Origin: Bacteroidota bacterium
GTDB taxonomy: Bacteria; Bacteroidota; Bacteroidia; Cytophagales; Cyclobacteriaceae
DNA length: 64,000 bases
NCBI GenBank assembly: GCA_016866235.1
Contig: VGMW01000001.1
Span: 496,001 to 560,000 of the forward strand
Direction: 5' to 3'
A model generated the notes under the pieces. It saw only the letters and a list, made by a program, of their open reading frames with translations, was not told the DNA's origin and ran no database searches. The first letter of the stretch is position 1; each line of letters starts with the position of its first letter. Shown here piece after piece: positions 5,899 through 36,523 of this stretch. The position numbers and the translations under genes are program-made.

Positions 5899-8837
5899 AT
5901 GCATTACCTGGCGACATTGCAATTCAAGGCGCATCTAAAACTGGTCCTGGCTATTATTTTTTGTGCCATCGCCGGCGCCTTGTCAGCTCAACAGCATGCG
6001 TTACGATATTATACGGTCAAAGAGGGGCTTAGCCAAAATTCAGTAACCGCCCTATTCCGGGATTCCAGAGGTTTTCTTTGGGTTGGTACCCAGGACGGAT
6101 TGAACCGCTTCGATGGATCGGAGTTTACAAGATTTCGACATGATGGCAACGATGAGTCATCCATCAGCGATCAATACATAACATCAATCTACGAGGATGT
6201 CCGCGGACTGCTCTGGATTGGTACCCGAAATGGTGTTAATACCTTCGATTGGTCTACCCAAAAGTTCAGAAGGATCTACCCTGATTCCTCCATGAGAAAT
6301 AAAGTTCAGTACGCAGTGAATCAAATTAGCTCTTTTAGTAATGGAGATCTTATGGTGTCGATTTCCGGTTCAGCCTTTCGCTATCGACATGCCGACCAGT
6401 CCTTTCAAAAGCTTAAGGATGAAATTTCATACTCTTATAGTTTTGTCGAGGCTGGAGACGAGTTGTGGCAAATTGTCGATGAAAACCATGTCTGTCGCCC
6501 AGTAGTTGAAAAACACAACCACCAGGGCTTGGGTGGTCGTTTGAATTTGTCGGTTGATCCCAATCAAAACATCTGGTCAGCATTTCCGGATGGACCTGAT
6601 GGCACCCTAATTAAAATTTTTTCTACCAAAGAAAAGAAATGGCTTCCTGAGCAGATTCAACTTCCGATGGTGGTCAATCAAATTGTATTTGATCCTAAAG
6701 GAACAGCCTGGTTGGCCAGTGGTAAGGGAATCCACCAGGTACTTTCCAATAAGAAGGTTCTTTTGTGGCAAGCGGGAGGTATTTCGCCTGGAACAGAGGT
6801 CTTGTGTCTTTTGCACGATAAGGACGGATTTATGTGGGTTGGTCTTGGAAATAATGGACTTGGTCTATTCAATCCTGAAACGGAAGCTTTTAGATTGTTT
6901 CAAACAGGTCTTCCCAACGATCCTGTTTTCTGCGCCGTGGAAGGCCTGGACAAGACACTTCTGGTAGGTGCACAATCCGGCCTCTATCGATTTACAATGG
7001 AAGGCAATCGAATTTCAAAATGGCTCGATGAAAAATGCAGATCCATTGCCATTGGTATTCAAAATGAAATTTGGGTTGGTACAGAAGGAGCAGGCTTGTT
7101 TAGACTTAATTCAAACGGAAAAATTACCGGTCATTGGACCAATGGCAATTCTCTACTTCCGGGCAATCAGATTTTTAGCGTCCTGCCTACGAAAGATGGT
7201 GATTTGGTGTACGTCTGTACTGATGGAGGACTGTTGGCTTTTGATACGCGTGAGAATTCAACGGTCTTTCATGATCCACTTATGACCAAAACCGGACCTT
7301 ATCTCAGCGGTAATTATGTGTTGCATGCTTTCCAGGACTCAAAAGAAAATATCTGGATTAGTACCAACTCCGGCATTGATGTTATGAAGGGCACGTCGAT
7401 AGTATCTTCTTTTCACACCGATTCAGACACTTCTCAACACATTAAAAGGACCATCGTAACGGGTGTAAAGGAGGATGGAAGTGGCGATCTATGGATCACC
7501 ACCCTCAGCAATGGCATTTACCGGAAACGTGGCAGCAAATTTTCTCAGTATAGGGGACCTAGCGCTATTGCTTACGGTGCTGCGTTGGATTCGTCAGGAA
7601 GGGTATGGGTAACCACCACCGACGGGATTATGTTGGTTGACCCGATTTCCGAAAAAGTATTTTCTGTCACCACCGACAATGGTCTGCCGGCATCGGACTT
7701 TTTCATTGGCAGTATTTCCTCAGGCCCATCCGGATTGTTGTTTGCTGGCAGTCCACAGGGTTTGGTTGTGATCGACCCAAATCTTTTTAAACCTATGGAA
7801 CAAAAGCTGTCCGTTCATTTAACTTCGGCTTCCTTGAATTATGAACCTGTTCCGATTTCAGAATCCTATGTGGTAGGGCAGGGCACCAGGGTTGTTTCAT
7901 TTGGATTTTCAGCTCCTACCTTTTTCAACGCTGAAAAATTAATTTTTCAGTATCGCCTTACCGGCTTTCAAAATGACTGGGTCACGCTTCCTGATCAGGA
8001 ACGAAGGATCACCTTCACCAACCTCCCTTATAGTCAGTTCGTGCTCGAGTTGAGGGCGGCTCAATCCACTGACCTTTTTCCTGCATCGGCTATCCTCAAG
8101 GTAGACCTTACGCGTCAGCCGCCGTGGTGGTTAAATAGGTCCGTGCAGGTCCCAGCGCTGATGATGGGTTTGGTGGTACTGGGTTTGATCATTCGCAACC
8201 TTAGTCGAAGAAAATTAAAGGAGCGAATCCGTAAATCTGAATTGGAGAAGCGTTTGTCGGAGGAGCGGGAACGGCTATCCCGTGACCTCCACGACCGACT
8301 GGGATCATATGCTGCAGCGATTAAAAACAGCATTCATCATTTAGAGCGAAAAGATGGCGGGGAGGATCGGCTCAGTTTATTGAAAGAAAACGCCGAGCAG
8401 ATGGTCAATGCACTCGGGAAACCATTTGGGCGCTTCAGCATCAGAACGTTTCACTGATATCGCTGAGTGATCGGCTCAAGAGCCACATCAACCGCATCGC
8501 CGGAAATTTCCCGGAGACCAACATTCAGGTCTTCGAAAATTTAAAAGCAGAGCATTCGCTTTCTCCTACAGAAGGCATCCATTTGCTTTCCATTTTACAG
8601 GAGGCTATCACCAATGCTTTACGCCATTCCGGCGCCTCGTCCATTCAGGTTGGGTTCAACGATCAGCCGGATTTTGAAATAATGGTACAGGACAATGGCA
8701 AGGGATTTTCAGCGTCATCACCCTCAGGCGGCTATGGTTTGGAAAACATGAGACAGCGAGCGCTTGAAGCAGGTTTTCAACTTGATATTTTTTCTCAACC
8801 TACCGGCACACGAATAAGCATTCGGAGAAAAAGTTAG
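5899..8837 (+). pseudogene. Propeller/Y_Y_Y sensor histidine kinase, frameshifted near 8414
   Basis: The N-terminus carries a signal/TM segment ending SAQ. Many two-component-regulator propeller repeats follow (patterns such as GFLWVGT.DGLNRFD), then a Y_Y_Y domain (YRLTGFQNDW), a TM helix (around bases 8143-8195), and a HisKA_3 box (ERLSRDLHDRLG). The first frame runs into a stop at 8455-8457 after MVNALGKP. In the frame one base earlier the protein continues as TRETIWALQHQNVSL and then a complete HATPase domain (EAITNALRHSG, DNGKGF, GYGLENMRQRA) to 8837. Restoring one base, for example CTCCGGGAA for CTCGGGAA, gives NALRETIWAL, so a one-base deletion is likely. As read, the product lacks its ATPase domain. 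Partner: the divergent response regulator. Confidence 0.85.
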
Positions 8838-15348: not shown

Positions 15349-15461
15349 TCGGTTGATTTTTCCGAATGCAAACCAAACACAGAACGATCAATTTTGATCG
15401 TAGGTGAGTTACCTCTCGTCAGGAAAAAACGGCAGTTTATCGGGAAAAATGGAAGGTCCGA

Positions 15462-15895: not shown

Positions 15896-17314
15896 TTACT
15901 TTAATTTAATAGAAATGGTGGTACCGACAGTTTCGTTCTTCCGGCAATATATCTGAAAATTATGTTCTTTCAATATGGCTACGCAGATCCCCAGGCCTAA
16001 CCCGCTTCCGGATTCCTTCTGATTTTCCCTGCGCAGATTTTTGGAGGAGAAATTGATGAATTCTTCCTGTGTGATGCCCCTGCCGTTGTCCTCCACCAGT
16101 AGTGTATCGGGATCGCCCATTCGAACTTTAACCCACTTATTCGTGCTGTCGTTGTATTTCAGTCCGTTACGAAACAGGTTGTCCACGGCTGTACAAAACA
16201 ATTGCTCACTTACCATGGCGCTGGTCAGGTTCTCTATAATGATTTGATCTTTGTAGGCTGTGGTAGAAATAAATTCACGCAGGATTTCACCGAGGTTGTG
16301 TTCGGTGAGTTTTAGTTTGGCGTCGGGCTTTACCAGGTTGGTAAACTCGAATATGCCCTTGTAAACCTTTTGTGCATGGCTGAGGCCTTCCTGAAGCATT
16401 CTTAAGGCAGGATCAAGTCTGAAGTTTTCAATGGCCTCCGGCGAAAGTCTGAGCTTAAGTGATTTAATGCCTCTGGGTATATAAACGTTTATGCCTGAGT
16501 GCATGTCGTGCCGTAAAATTTTTGCAGCGTGTTCCAGGTAGGTATTCTTTTTTTGAATTTCTCCGGATTGCTTTATTCGATCGGTAATGTCAACAGCAAT
16601 TTTAATTATCCTTTTTACCAATCCTTCATTGTTAATAATCGGAGTGTAGGTAGCCTGAAGCCAAACTATGGAACCATCTTTTTTGATGCGTTCCAATTCC
16701 GAAGATATGTGTCGGCCACCGCGAAGTGTATTCCAGAAATCCATGTATTCGAGGGATTCTGCGTACGTAGTGGTCACAAACATCTGATGGTGTTTACCTT
16801 GAAGCTCCTCATGGGTGTAACCCATGGTTTCACAGAACTGATCGTTGGCATACATAATGTTGCCATCCATATCAAACTCAACCACAGCGTTTGATTTGTT
16901 GATGGCATTCATTCGGTTTCTTATCTCCAATTCCTTCCTCTTTAATTCCGTTAAATCCTGACGGATGGAAGTGTATTCGGTTAAGGCTCCTGAGATGGGA
17001 TCAAAATCCGCTTTAACATAAGTGTCGACATAATAAAGCTGTCCGTTTTTAGATCGGTTGGTGACCACCTGGTTCCAGATGCCCTTATCCTTTATCACCG
17101 TCTTATACATGTCCTTCCACATGTCCTTTGGATGGATGCCGGAATTCACCACATTATGGTCCTTGCCCAACACCTCTTCCAGGCTGTACCCTGAAACCTC
17201 TGTAAACTTTTTATTGACGTAAGTGATTTTACCTTTTGCATCCGCTCTTGAAACGATGGCGGCCTCATCAACAAAATGAATCAGTTCTTCAAATCTTTTC
17301 CTTTGGGTTTCAAT
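15896..17314 (-). CDS. C-terminal part of repeat-PAS sensor histidine kinase (downstream of in-frame TAA)
   Basis: The frame is open from the codon after the TAA at 17315-17317. It contains the third copy of the repeat PAS (IVSRADAKGKITYVNKKF), a diverged second PAS (FDMDGNIMYANDQF), a histidine box (AAKILRHDMHSG) and a HATPase domain (NGLKYND, EDNGRGI, GSGLGLGIC). It is in the same frame as the upstream 17315-18862 piece, so the two were one gene. No strong start is visible; a non-ATG start near 17173 would cut into the PAS. Co-transcribed with the receiver gene. Function: cytoplasmic sensor kinase core; possibly inactive if not translated. Confidence 0.8.
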   Translation of the reverse strand: METQRKRFEELIHFVDEAAIVSRADAKGKITYVNKKFTEVSGYSLEEVLGKDHNVVNSGIHPKDMWKDMYKTVIKDKGIWNQVVTNRSKNGQLYYVDTYVKADFDPISGALTEYTSIRQDLTELKRKELEIRNRMNAINKSNAVVEFDMDGNIMYANDQFCETMGYTHEELQGKHHQMFVTTTYAESLEYMDFWNTLRGGRHISSELERIKKDGSIVWLQATYTPIINNEGLVKRIIKIAVDITDRIKQSGEIQKKNTYLEHAAKILRHDMHSGINVYIPRGIKSLKLRLSPEAIENFRLDPALRMLQEGLSHAQKVYKGIFEFTNLVKPDAKLKLTEHNLGEILREFISTTAYKDQIIIENLTSAMVSEQLFCTAVDNLFRNGLKYNDSTNKWVKVRMGDPDTLLVEDNGRGITQEEFINFSSKNLRRENQKESGSGLGLGICVAILKEHNFQIYCRKNETVGTTISIKLK

Positions 17315-18790
17315 TTATTGCTGCTGTAAAACCCTCTCGGTTGCATCGGTTGCAATTTTCATGACCCGGATTACCCTTCCTTCGGTATCCAATACCGGGT
17401 TGTAGGTCGCCTGCAACCAAATGCTTGAACCATCTTTTTTAACACGCTCAAAGACGGCATTGAGGTGTTTTCCATTGGATAATGTCTTCCAGAATGCCTG
17501 ATATTCTTCAGAGCTTAAATAATCCTGCCGAACCAACATGCCATGGTCTTTTCCTACCAGTTCGTCCTGCGTGTAGCCAAACAGTTCACAAAAATTAGGG
17601 TTTGCAAAAATGATTTTATGATCCAAACCAAATTCAATAACTGCGTTTGATTTGTTGATGGCATTCATCCGGTTGCGGATGTCCTGCTCCTTATTTTTTA
17701 GTTCAGTCAGATCCTGGCGTATGGAAGAATAGCCGGTGAGTGCGCCGGTTGTCGGATCGAATTCGGCCTTGATGTATGTGTCTACATGGTAAAGGCTGCC
17801 ATTCTTGGCCCGGTTGGTGACCACCTGGTTCCAGATGCCCTTATCTTTTATCACCGTCTTATACATGTCCTTCCACATGTCCTTTGGATGAATGCCCGAA
17901 TTCACCACATTATGGTCCTTGCCCAACACTTCTTCCAGGCTATACCCTGAAACCTCTGTAAACTTTTTATTGACGTAAGTGATTTTTCCTTTTGCGTCTG
18001 CTCTTGAAACGATGGCGGCCTCATCAACAAAATGAATCAGCTCTTCAAATCTTTTCCTTTGGGTTTCAATCTGTCGCTGCTGCAAAACCCTCTCGGTTGC
18101 ATCGGTTGCAATTTTCATGATCCGGATTACCCTTCCTTCGGTATCCAATACCGGGTTGTAGGTTGCCTGCAACCAAATGCTTGAACCATCTTTTTTAACA
18201 CGCTCATAGACGGAATTAAGGTGTTTTCCGGTGGATAAAGTCTTCCAGAATGCCTGATATTCTTCAGAGCTTAAGTAATCCTGCTGAACCAACATGCCGT
18301 GGTCTTTTCCTACCAGTTCGTCCTGCGTGTAGCCAAATAGTTCACAAAAATTAGGGTTTGCAAAAATGACATTACGATCCAAACCAAATTCAATAACTGC
18401 GTTTGATTTGTTGATGGCATTCATCCGGTTGCGAATGTCCTGCTCCTTATTTTTCAGTTCAGTCAGATCCTGGCGTATGGAAGAATAGCCGGTGAGTGCG
18501 CCGGTTGTCGGATCGAATTCAGCCTTGATATATGTGTCTACATGGTAAAGGCTACCATTCTTGGCCCGGTTGGTGACCACCTGATTCCAGATGCCCTTAT
18601 CTTTTATCACCGTCTTATACATGTCCTTCCACATGTCCTTTGGATGAATGCCCGAATTCACCACATTATGATCCTTACCCAACACTTCTTCCAGGCTGTA
18701 CCCTGAAACCTCCGTAAACTTTTTATTGACGTATGTGATTTTTCCTTTTGAATCGGCTTTTGAAATGATCGAGGCCTCATCGATAAACTT
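16900..18790 (-). repeat. In-frame 756-bp tandem repeats (about 2.5 units)
   Basis: The same landmark (CACATTATG.TCCTT, from the GKDHNVVNSG segment) occurs at 17150, 17906 and 18662, exactly 756 bases (252 codons) apart each time. Long stretches are identical at the DNA level. The last unit is repeat-like only in its first half; its second PAS is diverged. This points to recent duplication of an ancestral PAS-PAS unit. Confidence 0.93.
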
Positions 18791-18862
18791 TTCGATCTCA
18801 CCAAGTCTGTGTTGTTCGAGCTCTAATTCTTTGCTTAGAACTCCTTTTTTGGATGCCTTCAC
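17315..18862 (-). CDS. Repeat-PAS sensor protein (N-terminal part of split kinase)
   Basis: The protein has 515 residues and consists of two almost identical 252-residue units, each a PAS-PAC (KITYVNKKFTEVSGYSLEE) followed by a second PAS-PAC (NVIFANPNFCELFGYTQDE / KIIFANPNFCELFGYTQDE). It ends in a TAA where the previous repeat copy has CAG (Gln). It begins at a GTG directly after the TAG of the small membrane ORF. There is no transmitter domain of its own; the kinase core follows in frame. It may be a truncated pseudogene piece or a free PAS protein. Confidence 0.75.
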   Translation of the reverse strand: MKASKKGVLSKELELEQHRLGEIEKFIDEASIISKADSKGKITYVNKKFTEVSGYSLEEVLGKDHNVVNSGIHPKDMWKDMYKTVIKDKGIWNQVVTNRAKNGSLYHVDTYIKAEFDPTTGALTGYSSIRQDLTELKNKEQDIRNRMNAINKSNAVIEFGLDRNVIFANPNFCELFGYTQDELVGKDHGMLVQQDYLSSEEYQAFWKTLSTGKHLNSVYERVKKDGSSIWLQATYNPVLDTEGRVIRIMKIATDATERVLQQRQIETQRKRFEELIHFVDEAAIVSRADAKGKITYVNKKFTEVSGYSLEEVLGKDHNVVNSGIHPKDMWKDMYKTVIKDKGIWNQVVTNRAKNGSLYHVDTYIKAEFDPTTGALTGYSSIRQDLTELKNKEQDIRNRMNAINKSNAVIEFGLDHKIIFANPNFCELFGYTQDELVGKDHGMLVRQDYLSSEEYQAFWKTLSNGKHLNAVFERVKKDGSSIWLQATYNPVLDTEGRVIRVMKIATDATERVLQQQ

Positions 18863-19057
18863 CTACTGTATGTAGGAGCGAATCAAAAAAAGAAAGAAAG
18901 GGAAGAACAATCCTATGCACGCCAATCCAAAATACCCCAACCAAGGCTGGTAACTGAGCATACCAGATACAAGCAAAACCTGGATGAACAGGTATGTTAC
19001 CATAATCGCCAAACAGGCGATGAATGCAGCGATACTACTTTTGGTTTTAAGAAACAT
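18863..19057 (-). CDS. Small two-TM membrane ORF, probably the detached N-terminus of the PAS kinase
   Basis: The 64-residue peptide has two hydrophobic helices (SIAAFIACLAIMVTYLFIQVLL and WLGYFGLACIGLFFPFFLFL). Its TAG stop (18863-18865) is followed without a gap by GTG AAG in the same frame, opening the PAS-repeat protein. One ancestral frame 19057-15896 with a membrane anchor, three PAS-PAS units and a kinase core explains the arrangement. A two-gene arrangement with reinitiation at the GTG is the alternative. Confidence 0.55.
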   Translation of the reverse strand: MFLKTKSSIAAFIACLAIMVTYLFIQVLLVSGMLSYQPWLGYFGLACIGLFFPFFLFLIRSYIQ

Positions 19058-19189: not shown

Positions 19190-20218
19190 TTAGGCCTTTT
19201 TACTCCTCTGTTTTATCTTCTCCTGAATGGGCTTAAATGGACCGAACTTGTGCTGCGCTTCGGTAAATCCATCCGAAAATGGCCCAAAGGGGTGGTCAAC
19301 TGGCTTTTTCGAAATGTCCGGCCAATCGGCGGACAAATCTTTTGTCGGGCGTGGTTGTGAATTCACAAAAGCTGCGATGTCCCATGCCTCCTCATCGGAG
19401 AGCTGAGGCCGGTCAAAGGTTGAACCCAGCGGCATGTTGGCTTTGATGTAACCTGCAAACCTCGACAGTCGGTATAATCCTGCTCCCGTATTGTAACTGT
19501 GTTCGCCCCAAAGCGGCGGATAAAACCAACCAGGTCCACCCGGCATACGTTGCCCTTGTCCTTCTCTGCCGTGACAAACCGTGCATTTCTGAGCGTAAAG
19601 AATTTTTCCATTTTCCGGACTTGCGGCACGATCCAAAAAAGGCAGACTAACCAGTCCGGATCCTAATGGGGAGACATCCTTTTCCACATTGCTACCTAGC
19701 CAACGGAACCAGGCTAAAATAGCTTTCATCTCGCGGCTCTCATTGGAAAGCGGTTTTCCGTTTAAGCTGCGTTCAATGCAATCGTTCACCCGTTTCTCCA
19801 TGGTCTCAATGCTCCCGGAACGTGCTCTAAACTTTGGATAGGTTGAAGCCACAGCGCTGTAGTTGTTTCCAAAGGGTCTTGTTCCTGCATCGAGGTGACA
19901 GTTCTGGCAGTTCATTCCGTTCGATAAGGCGCCAACTGAACCTTCCGGCCCCAGGTAGGCTGAAGTTTTCTCAATCAGCGATCTGCCATACCGGATAAGT
20001 TCAGCACTATCGGATTGATCAAGAAGGCTTAAATCCGGCGCATGCCACAAGGAATCCTTTTTTTGCTCAACGATGGGTGTCGGCGACTGACTGGGCGCAG
20101 GTGGTGAGAGCACCAGCCAGGACAGCACAAAACAGGAAAGCAGTACAACAACCGATACCAATAAGGTTAGCCTTACAAGGCTGAAAATTTTATTGGCCGG
20201 TGATTGCAGGGGCTCCAA
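19190..20218 (-). CDS. tsdA: TsdA-like diheme cytochrome c (thiosulfate dehydrogenase family)
   Basis: The protein has 342 residues. An N-terminal TM anchor (about 12-37) puts the rest in the periplasm. Two c-type haem motifs are seen: CQNCH (104-108) and CTVCH (212-216). The first lies in GMNCQNCHLDAGTRPFGNNY followed by STYPKFRARSG, the hallmark of thiosulfate dehydrogenase. Cys147 in NDCIERSLNG is a candidate for the axial Cys ligand known in that family. The family couples two thiosulfates to tetrathionate (or the reverse). It is last in an operon with a split YeeE/YedE transporter and a TauE exporter, which supports a sulfur substrate. Confidence 0.85.
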   Translation of the reverse strand: MEPLQSPANKIFSLVRLTLLVSVVVLLSCFVLSWLVLSPPAPSQSPTPIVEQKKDSLWHAPDLSLLDQSDSAELIRYGRSLIEKTSAYLGPEGSVGALSNGMNCQNCHLDAGTRPFGNNYSAVASTYPKFRARSGSIETMEKRVNDCIERSLNGKPLSNESREMKAILAWFRWLGSNVEKDVSPLGSGLVSLPFLDRAASPENGKILYAQKCTVCHGREGQGQRMPGGPGWFYPPLWGEHSYNTGAGLYRLSRFAGYIKANMPLGSTFDRPQLSDEEAWDIAAFVNSQPRPTKDLSADWPDISKKPVDHPFGPFSDGFTEAQHKFGPFKPIQEKIKQRSKKA

Positions 20219-20224
20219 GATTTT

Positions 20225-20725
20225 TTAGTGTGGAAGTTTCTCTTTGAGTAAACCGTAGGTCCAGGTTCCAGCCAATGCACTCAATAAGGTTACAGCAATT
20301 TGGGGATAGCCGCTGGTGATTTGTGCGAACAACGGACCGGGACAGGCACCGGTCAACGCCCACCCGAATCCAAACAGCAATCCTCCCCAAACAACACCCA
20401 TGTGAAATTTTTTATCAGAAAGTACCACTGCCTCACCTTGAATGGTTTTGGTTCCAAATTTTTTAATCAGCCATACTGAAACCACTGCAGTGAAAACTGC
20501 TGAGCCAATCACGCCGTACATGTGAAAAGAATCGAAGCGGAACATTTCCTGAATGCGGTACCAACTGGAAATCTCTGCCTTTACAAAGACCACTCCGGTT
20601 AATAATCCCGCCAAAAGATATTTGATGTTTGATCCCAGCCATGATTCACGGGAGGACTGAAAATTCGACAGGTCATCCCCGCCGGTAAACTTTTCTGAGT
20701 TATTGTTTTGGTTGAGTGTTGACAT
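20225..20725 (-). CDS. YeeE/YedE-family transporter, C-terminal half protein (DUF6691 type)
   Basis: This 166-residue membrane protein has about four TM helices. The substrate-path signature GFGWALTGACPGPL carries the conserved Cys of YeeE-type thiosulfate transporters. The frame is open to a TTG at 20740, but the ATG at 20725 is preferred; it lies 11 bases after the stop of the partner half. With 20737-21300 it forms a split two-subunit transporter. It is followed after 6 bases by the tsdA-like gene. Confidence 0.85.
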   Translation of the reverse strand: MSTLNQNNNSEKFTGGDDLSNFQSSRESWLGSNIKYLLAGLLTGVVFVKAEISSWYRIQEMFRFDSFHMYGVIGSAVFTAVVSVWLIKKFGTKTIQGEAVVLSDKKFHMGVVWGGLLFGFGWALTGACPGPLFAQITSGYPQIAVTLLSALAGTWTYGLLKEKLPH

Positions 20726-20736
20726 ACAGGGAGCGA

Positions 20737-21300
20737 TCAAATCAGTTTGATGAGAAAGGGAAATAAAACATGCACCATAATAAATCCACCGGCCATAAAA
20801 CTAACCGTGGCAACAAGCGAAGGCCATTGCAAGGTTGACAAACCGAAAATGGCGTGTCCGGAGGTACAACCGCCGCCGTAACGGGTTCCAAATCCAACCA
20901 GAAATCCTCCCAACACGAAAAACAATAATCCATTTGAGGTGAACAATTGTTCAGGTCCAAAAATGGAAGCAGGCATCAACGTTCCATTGCTTTCAATACC
21001 AAGTGTTGCAAGCGCTGATGCGGTGGCTGGCGCTACGGTAATTGCTTCAGGGTTTGCCAAGGGTCCGGCGGCCAACCATCCGCCAACACCAATTCCCACC
21101 ACAAAAAATATGTTCCAGATTTCATGTTTCCATTGGTATTGGAAGAATGGAATTTTAGCCGGCAGGCAAGCGGCGCAAATGTGTCTGAGGCTACCGGAGA
21201 TCCCAAATCTTTTGTTGCCCAACAACAGCAACAGTGGTACCATGAGGCCAAGGATGGGACCGGCTACATACCAGGGCCAGGGCTTAACTAATGAGTCCAT
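20737..21300 (-). CDS. YeeE/YedE-family transporter, N-terminal half protein
   Basis: This 187-residue membrane protein has the paired signature GFGTRYGGGCTSGHAIFG, with a Cys that relays thiosulfate in characterised YeeE proteins. An extra pair of Cys lies near the N-terminus (HICAACLPAKIPFF). It is expected to assemble with the adjacent half protein to import a small sulfur anion across the inner membrane. It is the second gene of the TauE, YeeE-A, YeeE-B, TsdA operon. Confidence 0.87.
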   Translation of the reverse strand: MDSLVKPWPWYVAGPILGLMVPLLLLLGNKRFGISGSLRHICAACLPAKIPFFQYQWKHEIWNIFFVVGIGVGGWLAAGPLANPEAITVAPATASALATLGIESNGTLMPASIFGPEQLFTSNGLLFFVLGGFLVGFGTRYGGGCTSGHAIFGLSTLQWPSLVATVSFMAGGFIMVHVLFPFLIKLI

Positions 21301-21362
21301 GATGAGAATTAAAAGATAAAGATAGTCCGTGAGGACCAGAAAAGGATGGATTTAATGCTCGT

Positions 21363-22148
21363 TCAGAGCTCCTTCCACAACATGACCATGCCGGTCAACA
21401 GTACGAACCATCCGAAAATGGGTCTGAGTTTTTCGTCAGAAATATGGCGTGCCATTTTGCTGCCGACCAGTATTCCACCAATGGCAAATCCACTAAACAA
21501 AAGAAGAAATCTGTAATCGATCGGTGCGCCTGTCAGTAAGTCGCCTGTAAACCCTATGAGTGATTTGGCGGCGATGATGAGCAGGGAAGTACCCACAGCA
21601 TGTTTCATGGGCAGTCCGGCAAAAAGAATCAATGCTGGGATAATCAAAAATCCTCCGCCTGCGCCCACCAAACCGGTGAGTCCACCAACGAGAAATCCTT
21701 CAGTAAAAATCAGCTGATAATTCAGCTGCTCCACTTTGGATGTACTGGTTTTATTGGGCTGGAAAATCATGGTTAATGCTGCGCCCAGCATGAGAACAGC
21801 AAAGAGTAAAAGGATCAGGCTTGATTTGGTAAGCAGGAAGTCGCCGGTCTGGAAAATATTTTCCGGTATGGCCGGCAGTAGTTTGGCGCGCACCAGCCAG
21901 ACCGAGGCAATGGAAGGCGCTCCGAAGACAAGGGCAATTTTAAGATCGATGAAACCTCTCCTAAAGTGACTGTAGGAACCGATGAGGCTTGCGGTGCCAA
22001 CGATGAACAAGGAATAGGCTGTAGCCGTAACCGGGTTGATGTTAAACAGGTACACCAGAATTGGAACAGTAAGTATGGAGCCACCGCCGCCAATGAGGCC
22101 TAGCAAAATGCCCATGACGACTGCAGATAAATAACCCAGAAATTCCAT
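21363..22148 (-). CDS. TauE/SafE-family anion exporter
   Basis: The 261-residue integral membrane protein has about eight TM helices. The duplicated family motifs are GLIGGGGSILTVPILVYLF near the N-terminus and GLVGAGGGFLIIPALILFAG in the middle. The family exports sulfite, sulfoacetate and related organosulfur anions. It is the first gene of the sulfur operon, 62 bases upstream of the YeeE half gene, so export of sulfite or import of a sulfur anion fits. A palindrome lies in its upstream region. Confidence 0.88.
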   Translation of the reverse strand: MEFLGYLSAVVMGILLGLIGGGGSILTVPILVYLFNINPVTATAYSLFIVGTASLIGSYSHFRRGFIDLKIALVFGAPSIASVWLVRAKLLPAIPENIFQTGDFLLTKSSLILLLFAVLMLGAALTMIFQPNKTSTSKVEQLNYQLIFTEGFLVGGLTGLVGAGGGFLIIPALILFAGLPMKHAVGTSLLIIAAKSLIGFTGDLLTGAPIDYRFLLLFSGFAIGGILVGSKMARHISDEKLRPIFGWFVLLTGMVMLWKEL

Positions 22149-24010: not shown

Positions 24011-24638
24011 TTAATAATGCTTTAAGATTGATTTAATGCTGTTCTTATTAAGCAGCGTATCATCATCCACCGCTGCAGTTACTGTAAAACTTTTCAATTT
24101 CAGGTATTCGAGCCCCGGATGTTCGGGCGAATAACCTTTCGGCGGACGAGATAATTCAGCTTCTCGATCCAGGTCTCCAAAAGTTTTTTTGAAGACAGAT
24201 GATTTCACAATGGATTTGAATTCATCCAAACAATAGTCGATCTCCTGCCTGATGGTGCTGACCTGCTCGGGCTCCGGCATCCAAATTCCGGCCGCCAAAA
24301 CTGTTGCCTGGCTCGATATGAAGATAATAACCTGCTGTTGCCGATTTTTTTCCGCCTTTATTCATAAAGACTCCAAAGTTGTTTTTGTACGGTCGTTTAT
24401 CGTTGCTGAACCGGATATCGCGGTTAATTCGGAATAGACATTTATTCGATTCAATGGGTCGCAGATCGTCGTCCATCAGCTTTAGCGATTCCAACAATTC
24501 ATGAACGTATTCGTGAAACACTTCCCTGCAGGCTGAATAAGTTGGCCTGTTGGCATCAAACCATTCCTTTCTATTGTTTTTCTTCAGCGCCTTTAAAAAC
24601 TTAAAAACCGAATGGGTAAGTGAGGGTAAATTTTTCAC
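24011..24638 (-). pseudogene. DUF2461 protein, frameshifted near 24290
   Basis: The first frame (from ATG 24638) gives the DUF2461 N-terminus (FLKALKKNNRKEWFDANRP, LFRINRDIRFSNDKRPYK, GYYLHIEPGNSF). It then leaves the family sequence and stops at 24222. The neighbouring frame carries the rest (AAGIWMPEPEQVSTIRQEI to the C-terminus) and ends at 24011. One extra base, or two missing bases, near the TTTT run around 24293 explains the switch. The function of the family is unknown. Confidence 0.85.
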
Positions 24639-31665: not shown

Positions 31666-34600
31666 ATGGAAGTTTTTACCAGAGTATTTCAATTTCGTCG
31701 AATTCAGGAACTAGGCAGCGCTCTTCGCATTTGGGTTTTGTCGGCCGTATTCCTTTTAAGTACCGGAGCGGTTTGGGGGCAGACCCTAAGTGCTGCTTTA
31801 ACGGGTACATACGGAACTGCTTCTAGTTACGATCACGGGTGCTCCGTTCATTTATAATGGCAGTGCGATTACCCCTGCGACGGTATCGGTTACCGGGGCT
31901 GGTGGTCTGAATGAGACACCTGTTGCGGTTTATGTCAACAACACTAATGCTGGTACAGCGAATGCGAGCTACACCTATGCAGGTGATGAGAACCACGAGG
32001 GCAGCAGTGACAGTGAGGATTTCACCATTGGCAAGGCCATCGCTACTATTACTGCATCAAACAAATCCATTACTTACGGCGAACCTATTCCTGAATTCAC
32101 TGCAGTCGAATCAGGCAAAGTAGGAGATGCTTTTGTATACACTTTATCTTCTGAGGCTAAAATATTAAGTGATGTTGGCACCTATGCTATTACCGTTGGT
32201 CTAGGTTCGAACCCGAACTATAATGTGGCCACAACTAATGGTTTATTGACCATCACCCCCGCCACACCAACCCTCACCCTCACCGGTGGAGAATTTAACT
32301 ACAGCGGAAGTGCAATCGCTGCAACCACTACACTCAAGGGTGTAGCAGATGAAGCGCTTACCCCTGCCGCTAAAGTGTTCTACCAGGGTTCTTACATCAC
32401 CAGTAACTCAAATGCTGCCTATGCGCAATCCGAAACAGCACCGATAGAACCTGGTACCTACTCAGTAACTGCCTCCTTCGAGGGTAATAAAAATTATAAC
32501 CCCGCAACAGCCGGACCGGTAACCTTAACCATCGTCGATAAGGTGAAACCAGTAGTGGTCACTAAGGATATTACCGTGAAGCTTGATGCAAATGGCGTTG
32601 CCTCTATTGCTGTGGCAAACATCGACAACAACTCTACCGATAACCATCAGGTTCTTTCTAGAGTTCTGAATAAAACCAGCTTCAATTGTGACAACCTCGG
32701 AGAGAACAAGGTTGCCTTAACGGTGACCGATCTAAGTGGAAATACTGCTACCGCCACCGCAACCGTAACTGTCGTTGACGAAATTAAGCCCGCAGTTACC
32801 GCTGCAGCCGACATCAATACGACAACTTCATCCGACGACACAGCTAACTGCACTGTATCAGTTGTAATTCCTAATGCCACTTCATCTGACAATTGTAGTG
32901 TGACATCCCTGACATGGGTAATGACAGGGGCTAAAACTGCCGATGGTAATGGACAGATTGGTACAATTACATTCCCTATCGGAACCACCACCATCGTTTA
33001 TACGGTTAAGGATGCTTCCAACAACACGTCTACAGATGAAATGGTCGTTACCGTTACCGATGATGAGAAGCCAACCTTCTCTACTCCAGCGTCCATTACC
33101 CGGAAAACAGATGAGGGCTCTCTTCAGTATACAGTAAATGCAACCGAATTGGATGCAATAAATATTACTGACAACTGCTCCGTAGCCAAAATTGAATATG
33201 AACTTACCGGCGCCACCAAAGGAAATGGCGACAACACATTGGCTGGAGTGAAAATGGAGTTTGGTTTAACCACCATCACCTGGACCGTGACCGATAAGGC
33301 AGGCAACGCTACAACTGCAACAACATCCATCAACGTAAATGCAGTGAACTCACAGATGTTGACACTTAATGCAGCACCAGCAGCTGTGCAGTACAGCGAT
33401 AATGTAACCTATACCGCTCAAATCAAACCTTGGACGGGCTCGGGTGACCTGACGCCATCCGGTTATGTTGAATTCACTACCAACGGAGTATTCATGGGTA
33501 GGGCAGAGGTAGGTACAAATGGCGAGGCAACTCTGGTTGCTCCGTTGATTGAATCCAAATTCGATCAATCCTCCTATGATAATAATCGTCCTACTGCAGG
33601 TCTCTTGATGCCAGGATCTAAGGAAATCACCGCTGTTTTCAAATCTGCAAACAATAATTATCAAGACATAAGTAATACTCTTCAGAATGGCTTGTCGATT
33701 CTTGAAGAAGAGTCTTTAATTACACTTGATAATTCAAGGACCTATTTCTCTGCTGATCCTGTAACAGGTAAAGCCACCATCAGCATGAAAACTTCTGTCC
33801 AGGATGCACTTGATAATTCCAATGGTGACATCCGAAATAGCATGATTCAATTCATGGATGCTGAAACTGGTAAATCTATTTCAATTGGAACATTATTACC
33901 TGTTACACTTGAAAATTCCTCAGACCTCACTAAGGGAAGTACGACCTATAACTTTGAGCAACAACTCAATAATCAACCCGGTCGCCAGTGGCTCGTATGG
34001 CCTAAGGCATCCAACTACTACAAAGGGGATGATCGCCTTAACATGAATATTCTTACACTTGGTGTGCCGGGCTTAGAATTTTTATCAGGATCAGGTTTTA
34101 TCATTCAGCAAAACTCAACTGGTGCATTAGCGGGTACTGCAGGACAAAAGATGAATTTTGGTTTCCATATGAAGTGGAATAATTCAGGTCAGAATCTGCA
34201 AGGTCAATTGAATATACTTTACCGTCGTATTGAAAACGGAGTAACCAGGCTTTACTTGATAAAGAGTAATGCAATCGAAGGTACTGTTATAGGTGCGAGG
34301 ACTTTTGTAGATAGTGATGGAACGGAGCGAGCCTATACCACCAGCAATACAATCACCACCAAGGCTTCACTTATTGATATCACTGACGAAGGAAATCCAA
34401 TCAGCGTCGCTGGTAACCTCTTACTTAACTTCACAGCTTGGGATGATCGATCATTGGGTTCACAAGGTGATTGGGATAAAGTTTCAGTGGAACTACGTCG
34501 AGGAACAAATAATGAATTGGTATTCACCAACAATTTTGACGGATCGGCTTCAACTGCAAGTAATATCCGTAGTGGTAACATCAATGTCCGTGACGCAAAT

Positions 34601-36523
34601 ACCTCTACACCTGAGGCCTGCTCAACACCAAGATCACTGGCAACCGATTTCATCACCTCTGGTTCAGCCAACTTAAACTGGTCTTTGGTGGCGGGTGCTA
34701 CTGGTTACAACGTTCAATACCGGGTACAAGGTGCAAGCGATTGGATCCAGCTCTCTGGCATCCCAACCATGCCGTATGCTTTAAATGGACTTACTCAGGG
34801 CACTTCTTATGAATGGCAAGTTCAAACGGCATGTCTCGGATCAATGAGTCCATTCTCGACAACCATGTTCTTTACTACAGGAACTGTTTGTTCTGCTGTA
34901 CCTACAGGCCTGAGTACTTCAAATGTTGCCAACACCAGCGCTCAACTAAGCTGGGTAGCAGTATCAGGTGCAGTTAGCTATAACATCGAATACCAAATCC
35001 AGGGTGGTACATCGTCCTTCATATTTGGTGTTACCTCCACTGCTTATACCCTCAATGGTCTATCCGAGGCAACCACCTACAACTGGAGGGTGCAGTCAGT
35101 TTGTTCAAGTGGTCCTGGAGCATTGTCGCCTTATTCGAACTTCACAACCACCACCAGCTGTCTGCCTACCGGAATTGTGGCGCAAAACGTAACGACGGAA
35201 TCAGCTAAAATCAGCTGGAATACGGTTCGCTCAGCTAAGTTTTACACACTTCAATACCGTGAGTCACGAAGCACTACCTGGTCTACTCCTGTCACTGTTA
35301 GCACTGGAACCAGCTATGATATGCTCGGTCTGAAATCTGGTACCGCCTATGTGGTTGGTATAGCCGCTGATTGTAATGCTCAGGGTCTTGTGACCGCTTC
35401 ATTCACCACGCTGGTGGGCTGCGATGCAACATCCTTGGTCGCTAGTGGCATAACAGCATCGACCGCTACTCTTTCCTGGGTAGGCCCTGCAGGCGCTACG
35501 TTTAACCTACAGTACAAATTGAACACGGCTGCAGCTTGGACAGCAGTAGATGGAATCACTGCAGGTAATTATGGTCTCACAGGTCTAAGCACGCAGTCAA
35601 CCTACAACTGGCAAGTCCAGGCTGTATGCAATGGAACGGAAGGCAACTGGTCGGCCATTGCCTCCTTCAAGACGACTTCTGTTGCGGCTTGTCTTACGCC
35701 TTCAGGATTGATTGCCTCAAACATTACTGGAACTAGTGCAACCTTTAAATGGGGTGCTGTTACCGGGGCGAAGTCTTACAATGTTCAATACCGCTTGTTT
35801 GGAGCGACTACGTTTACTGTGGTACCCGTTACGAAAAATACCTTAAACCTTACCGGTTTGGTTGCTGGAAAGCAGTACGAATGGAATGTGCAGACCGTGT
35901 GTACTACCGGTAACTCAACGGTATCCGCAATCAATTCCTTCAATACCATAACCCCATGTGCTCCGTTCAACCTGTCTGTCTCGTCCATCAGTACAAGTGC
36001 TGCGACACTCAATTGGTCAGGATCGGGTTCCAATGCGACCTATCGTGTTGAATACCGCAAGCGTGGATCATCGTCCTACATTGCCGCTGTAATCTCAACT
36101 ACCTCGTCTGCCCTCACCAGCTTAGCCGCCGGAACCACCTACGAGTGGAGGGTGACATCGATCTGCGACGGTAAAAATGGATCAACCGTTAATGGACCTT
36201 CCTTCACCACTCTTAAGAACGGATCTGGCAGATCTGCTGAAGATGTTGATACCACGGATGAGAATGTCTTTAATCCTTCGATAACAGCTCGCCCTAACCC
36301 TACCCACGGACCGGTTTCAGTAAAAATCTCAGGATTCTATTACGAGCCTGTCATGATCAGGGTAACCGATATGCGTGGCGCGATCATCTTCAAACAGGAA
36401 GTTCAGTTCCACCCTGATATGCAGTCCATCGATCTGAATCTGGAAAATGCTCCTGTAGGAATGATCTTTATCCAGGCAATCCAGGGCAACACGACCATCA
36501 CCGAACGTGTGGTTAAGAATTAA
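31666..36523 (+). CDS. Giant T9SS-exported MBG/HYR/FN3 repeat surface protein, frameshifted near its N-terminus
   Basis: From ATG 31666 a signal peptide (RIWVLSAVFLLSTGAVWGQ) leads into LSAALTGTYGTASS. This frame stops at 31857. The adjacent frame, open from 31802, continues without a break to 36523 (TITGAPFIYNGSAITPATV onward), so one extra or two missing bases around 31825 separate signal and body. Domains in order are MBG-like modules, HYR-type modules (VTDLSGNTATATATVTVVD), a middle region of about 400 residues without a recognised fold, six FN3 repeats (each starting C.P..L, with W and YEWQVQ-type motifs), and a C-terminal T9SS sorting domain (ARPNPTHGPVSVKISGF to ERVVKN). Probably a cell-surface adhesin. 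If real, the frameshift would block export. Confidence 0.85.

Follow-up and report, generated by a model that had tools for sequence, protein, structure and literature searches.

An interrupted PAS-repeat sensor kinase gene in a Cyclobacteriaceae genome is probably a recently inactivated member of a phage-centred two-component module

A 64,000-nucleotide stretch of a Bacteroidota bacterium of the family Cyclobacteriaceae (assembly GCA_016866235.1, contig VGMW01000001.1, positions 496,001 to 560,000; hereafter the window) carries on its minus strand a sensor histidine kinase gene that is interrupted by two in-frame stop codons and followed by a receiver gene. This locus is probably a recently inactivated chromosomal member of a two-component module that is centred on phages. 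According to the frame analysis, a single phase of 1,054 steps spans 19057-15896, including both internal stops, and no frameshift lies within it. It encodes an anchor with two transmembrane (TM) segments, then, after the stop TAG, three PAS-A/PAS-B units (labels of this analysis, derived from one window unit) and the kinase core, and the receiver open reading frame (ORF) starts 2 bases past the kinase stop. The TAG is directly preceded by CAG and directly followed by GTG, and the second stop, TAA, is located in the linker between PAS units 2 and 3, at a site of repeat copy 2 that is a sense codon in the preceding copy. The continuous phase, the setting of each stop and the spacing of the receiver had been given in a preliminary description of this DNA and were all borne out; its repeat-built PAS-PAS array also held, while its count of two and a half units was replaced by three. 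Pfam searches of the window pieces matched PAS families, HATPase_c and Response_reg, and returned no family for the 64-residue anchor piece.

Relatives of this gene encode the anchor, the PAS units and the kinase as one polypeptide, which supports the earlier claim of one gene divided by two stops. The comparison set comprised 110 relatives with a core, namely 28 of the 29 loci found in a scan with one PAS unit and 82 others. Two N-terminal hydrophobic stretches are present in frame in 33 of the 44 distinct, 5'-complete relatives. A hidden Markov model (HMM) of 33 viral anchors gave the 64-residue window piece 39.8 bits, compared with 10.8 for the best of 200 shuffles and 7.1 for the TsdA N-terminus, and the score was 48.8 bits when X replaced the stop and the following peptide was included. 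The PAS orders among the 110 were A-B (48), A (33), B (18), B-B (2) and B-A-B (1), with none detected in eight; two A-B units were found in none of them, nor was any PAS-A or PAS-B match found within 1,500 bases upstream of their kinase ORFs. Since the anchor is fused in frame in those 33 relatives and no relative has a PAS domain stranded behind a stop, both stops look derived. Disabling changes that are derived and absent from relatives are what is expected of a pseudogene. That the pieces were separate genes from the outset, the arrangement that the preliminary description had named as speaking against a single gene, is ruled out by the fused anchors; the pieces are not always separate genes in relatives.

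The PAS units repeat with a period of 756 bp. Units 1 and 2 are ~95% alike, with 38 differences in 756 bases, a synonymous divergence (dS) of 0.17, a nonsynonymous divergence (dN) of 0.039 and a dN/dS of 0.22, and the first 73 codons of A2 and A3, which flank the TAA, are separated by nine synonymous and no nonsynonymous changes. The substitution pattern indicates that the repeat units diverged under purifying selection. Unit 3 tracks unit 2 over approximately the first 220-240 bases and is diverged beyond them, and unit 2 is a mosaic: all differences between its start and unit 3 are synonymous, and its remainder is nearest to unit 1, a pattern that unequal crossing-over would produce.

The kinase core of the window matches HATPase_c (1.8e-14) and gave no match to Pfam HisKA. 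H17, N131, DNGRG and G-x-GLGL are found in the window and in all 47 relatives compared, and I129F is the sole motif change. The receiver matches Response_reg (8.3e-10), and its D9, D10, D61 and K114 are invariant in all 15 aligned sequences, hand-chosen from the receivers found; it is off consensus at 7 of 64 columns, the highest of the 15 compared, and looks slightly relaxed. Judged from these residues, the locus has the predicted hallmarks of a two-component system, i.e., a histidine phosphoacceptor box, an N/G1/G2 HATPase and a receiver with a phosphoacceptor Asp. A frame without frameshifts, repeats under purifying selection and intact motifs together suggest that the gene worked after its expansion and that the damage is recent. 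The PAS array would have expanded, and its units would have diverged under purifying selection, while the gene was functional; the TAG and the TAA would then have arisen recently and inactivated the sensor.

Most of the close relatives are viral. With the core as query, at least 588 viral stretches were found to encode a relative (among the 598 matching stretches listed), and 80 viral loci were kept, whose cores are 56-66% identical to that of the window; the receivers of relatives are 57-69% identical to the window receiver. The T4-like capsid protein Gp23 was above the cut-off in 9 of the 40 viral records searched (of the 80), some of which look like the same virus, including 8 of the 10 records of at least 100 kb, with sizes up to 322 kb; it was not found above the cut-off in the other 31 of the 40, which are mostly fragments. 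Tail sheath, baseplate and endolysin families were identified among 64 flank proteins of seven loci (pooled, the locus not being resolved). By this gene content, the viral carriers appear to be phages. None of 50,697 named phage records matched the core, the receiver or Z (a third gene, described below), and a viral kinase used as query against such records gave only partial matches below 60% identity, in 18 records.

In 107 of the 110 loci, the kinase is followed by the receiver and by gene Z, which encodes a membrane coiled-coil protein, and the other three are cut by contig ends. The model of Z consists of one long helix and a second helix (pTM, the predicted template-modelling score, 0.33). 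To judge from gene order and conserved motifs, the module most likely passes the signal from kinase to receiver in the ordinary way, Z being a membrane partner. Additional genes occur between kinase and receiver: locus L072 encodes a patatin-like phospholipase (6657-7649), which matches PADLOC effector models and has a similar gene at this place in five viral loci, and locus L045 has two genes, X and Y (6654-8668), an arrangement seen in 25 viral loci, of which X has no family and Y encodes a second HATPase protein.

Close relatives in cellular genomes are rare. A comparison with 95 other genomes from the genus and order yielded one close core relative (G033, 63% identical, uninterrupted), most of the remaining genomes giving weak matches such as any histidine kinase yields; of 57 other genomes, G033 was again the only one with a receiver match at 1e-12. 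When 84,980 species genomes of bacteria and archaea were scanned, possibly with the window's own genome left out, six loci were returned at the sensitivity of that scan: L032 (63%), L033 (57%) and four distant ones (22-36%). L032, which is the same locus as G033, is chromosomal in the Bacteroidetes metagenome-assembled genome (MAG) RH-18aug17-329, of the window's genus, and its receiver is 69% identical to that of the window. Unlike the window, it has an uninterrupted B-A-B-kinase of 634 residues without an anchor, and its third gene has a Z-like N-terminus fused to a second kinase. L033 sits in a MAG next to a PhoH-like gene, and three further neighbours scanned gave no phage family match. 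In a tree of 63 rows made by a quick method, long branches lead to the window and L032, which join the viral loci L040, L107, L047 and L060, a join that may be an artefact.

The window has a core followed by a receiver of the family, as the module does. However, Z is absent from the window and was not found in its own genome (a control search recovered Z in 3 of 3 records), so the window is regarded as a defective relative and not as a full member of the module. Pseudogenisation fits best among the four explanations offered in the preliminary description, because Z is missing here and none of the 110 relatives is interrupted.

Several observations weigh against a recently inactivated member. 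The anchor is absent from 11 of the 44 relatives, including L033 and L032, the latter of the same genus. The 110 loci were selected by similarity to the window and are redundant, with 47 distinct cores among the first 82 and five contigs found by both the PAS-unit and the core scan. Of the 75 core residues that never vary in 47 relatives, the window keeps 71, along with 17 of 20 near-invariant positions; constraint on the core is largely retained, and the kinase itself may still work. In the same test the intact L032 misses 4 of 79, and most viral members miss 0-3. Finally, outside this gene the window shows apparent frameshifts at three sites (near 8,420, 24,290 and 31,830), which are possible consensus errors; they are either sequence errors or other broken genes.

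The main biological rival, though an unlikely one, is a gene that is split but working: a soluble PAS-kinase of 338 residues, restarted at the ATG at 16912, would be coupled to the receiver, and the rest would be dead or a separate decoy. Relatives of this kind exist, since L056, L073, L080, L103 and L107 have 346-375 residues, no predicted TM segment and one PAS domain (A type), and the intact kinase motifs and the retained, family-like receiver are in agreement with it. However, Z, which no relative of sufficient length lacks, is missing, and selection acted until recently on the PAS units that lie beyond the stops.

It is rather improbable that one or both stops come from an error of consensus or assembly, perhaps with mis-assembly of the repeats. 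The repeats invite such mis-assembly, and the three apparent frameshifts may be consensus errors. At 8380-8837, a sensor ORF (5899-8457) is apparently broken by a single-base frameshift at a G run and continues in another frame (8583-8837, the HATPase part). The gene at 24011-24638, which we take to be DUF2461-like, is apparently divided by a single-base frameshift near 24290. A large repeat-rich surface protein (31666-36523) apparently has its start in pieces in different frames.

Very doubtful is an on/off switch in which the TAA would be lost or regained as the 756-bp units recombine with or convert one another. The preliminary description had considered such a switch plausible, and the tandem units share up to 86 identical bases, and the mosaic unit 2 points to past recombination. 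It is nevertheless unsupported, because the TAG is outside the repeats and would remain, and no relative has the array of two A-B units; these two points rule out repeat recombination as the main explanation.

Programmed readthrough or a recoded stop, also raised earlier, is the least credible. The frame is open across both stops, and some phages recode TAG as glutamine, which the in-frame TAG recalls; however, two different stops are involved, and among the genome's 36 transfer RNA (tRNA) matches there is no suppressor anticodon (CUA or UUA), which speaks against recoding or suppression. Both codons end long frames here, TAG terminating 19 of 142 in 384 kb (the window and 16 sampled 20-kb stretches, 320 kb, of the 2.77-Mb genome), and 7 of 47 relatives end the kinase gene with TAG. 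A hexamer screen of the same 384 kb, which replaced a codon-usage screen that had missed the known TAA, gave 40 pairs of same-frame segments on the two sides of a stop, and in four of them the next start is at least 20 codons away. The TAA at 17317 is the only one of these four with a long frame on either side (516 and 473 codons); in the others at least one side is below 80 codons. Such a split is not a common accident in the sampled DNA, and no other one speaks for recoding. The TAG did not appear in the output of the screen and so lacks this control. In L209 a similar-looking TAG, whose next start is 18 codons away, separates two distinct proteins, judged from the translation.

Table 1. Features of the interrupted kinase locus in the window.
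Feature	Positions	Strand	Basis
Two-TM anchor, 64 codons, homologous to the N-terminal anchor of viral kinases	18866..19057	minus	HMM of 33 viral anchors
First in-frame stop TAG, GTG next	18863..18865	minus	Chain of relatives continues past the corresponding point
PAS-A/PAS-B unit 1, borders approximate	18050..18805	minus	Pfam and repeat comparison
PAS-A/PAS-B unit 2, borders approximate	17294..18049	minus	38/756 bases differ from unit 1
Second in-frame stop TAA, unit 2-unit 3 linker	17315..17317	minus	Frame, repeat comparison and hexamer screen
PAS-A/PAS-B unit 3, borders approximate	16562..17293	minus	Start near unit 2, rest diverged
In-frame ATG at start of last PAS-B, possible restart of a 338-residue PAS-kinase	16910..16912	minus	
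Kinase core, H-box/N/G1/G2 motifs	15899..16558	minus	71/75 family-invariant residues kept
Single-domain receiver, 143 residues	15462..15893	minus	Response_reg match
Stretch directly after the receiver	15349..15461	minus	Own genome searched: none; control 3/3 records

Upstream of the kinase, 19190-22148 holds an apparent sulfur cluster with a SoxA/TsdA-like cytochrome c, whose membrane proteins are presumably two YeeE-like and one TauE-like. A TetR-ABC1 pair without the kinase was present in all eight relative neighbourhoods fetched (4.9-14 kb each; 21 other genomes have a TetR match). TsdA does not adjoin TetR-ABC1 in these eight, so no clean empty insertion site can be demonstrated.

The locus shares with orthodox two-component systems the PAS domains, the H-box histidine, the N/G1/G2 motifs, and the acidic residues, Asp and Lys of the receiver. 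It differs from them in that the receiver has no output domain, the conserved membrane coiled-coil Z follows the receiver in relatives, most close relatives are on viral contigs, and the window kinase lacks the HisKA match. The divergent receiver domain cREC of jumbo phages is likewise a receiver-like domain in large phages; it is a different receiver and is described as never occurring together with histidine kinases (PMC7824862), whereas here the kinase precedes the receiver at every locus where a receiver was found. A literature search by titles and abstract openings, with preprints and most subscription papers outside its scope, found no publication on a phage-encoded kinase/receiver module.

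On balance, we favour the view that phages which are large, uncultured and in part T4-like commonly have a two-component module of their own. It would comprise a two-TM (GAF)-PAS histidine kinase, a single-domain receiver and Z, and sometimes also a second kinase or a patatin phospholipase; bacteria would rarely have acquired or donated it, and the window would hold a decaying chromosomal copy. During infection, such a phage may sense the envelope or metabolism of its host and respond at the membrane, where lysis timing or superinfection, for example, might be affected. The stop codons themselves are probably fairly ordinary decay, and the module to which they lead is less ordinary: uncultured viral contigs commonly have it, while 2 of the 84,980 species genomes gave close relatives at the sensitivity of the scan. 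If phages run their own two-component signalling, their sensing of the host state becomes testable, and the bacterial copies point to signalling genes having passed between phage and host.
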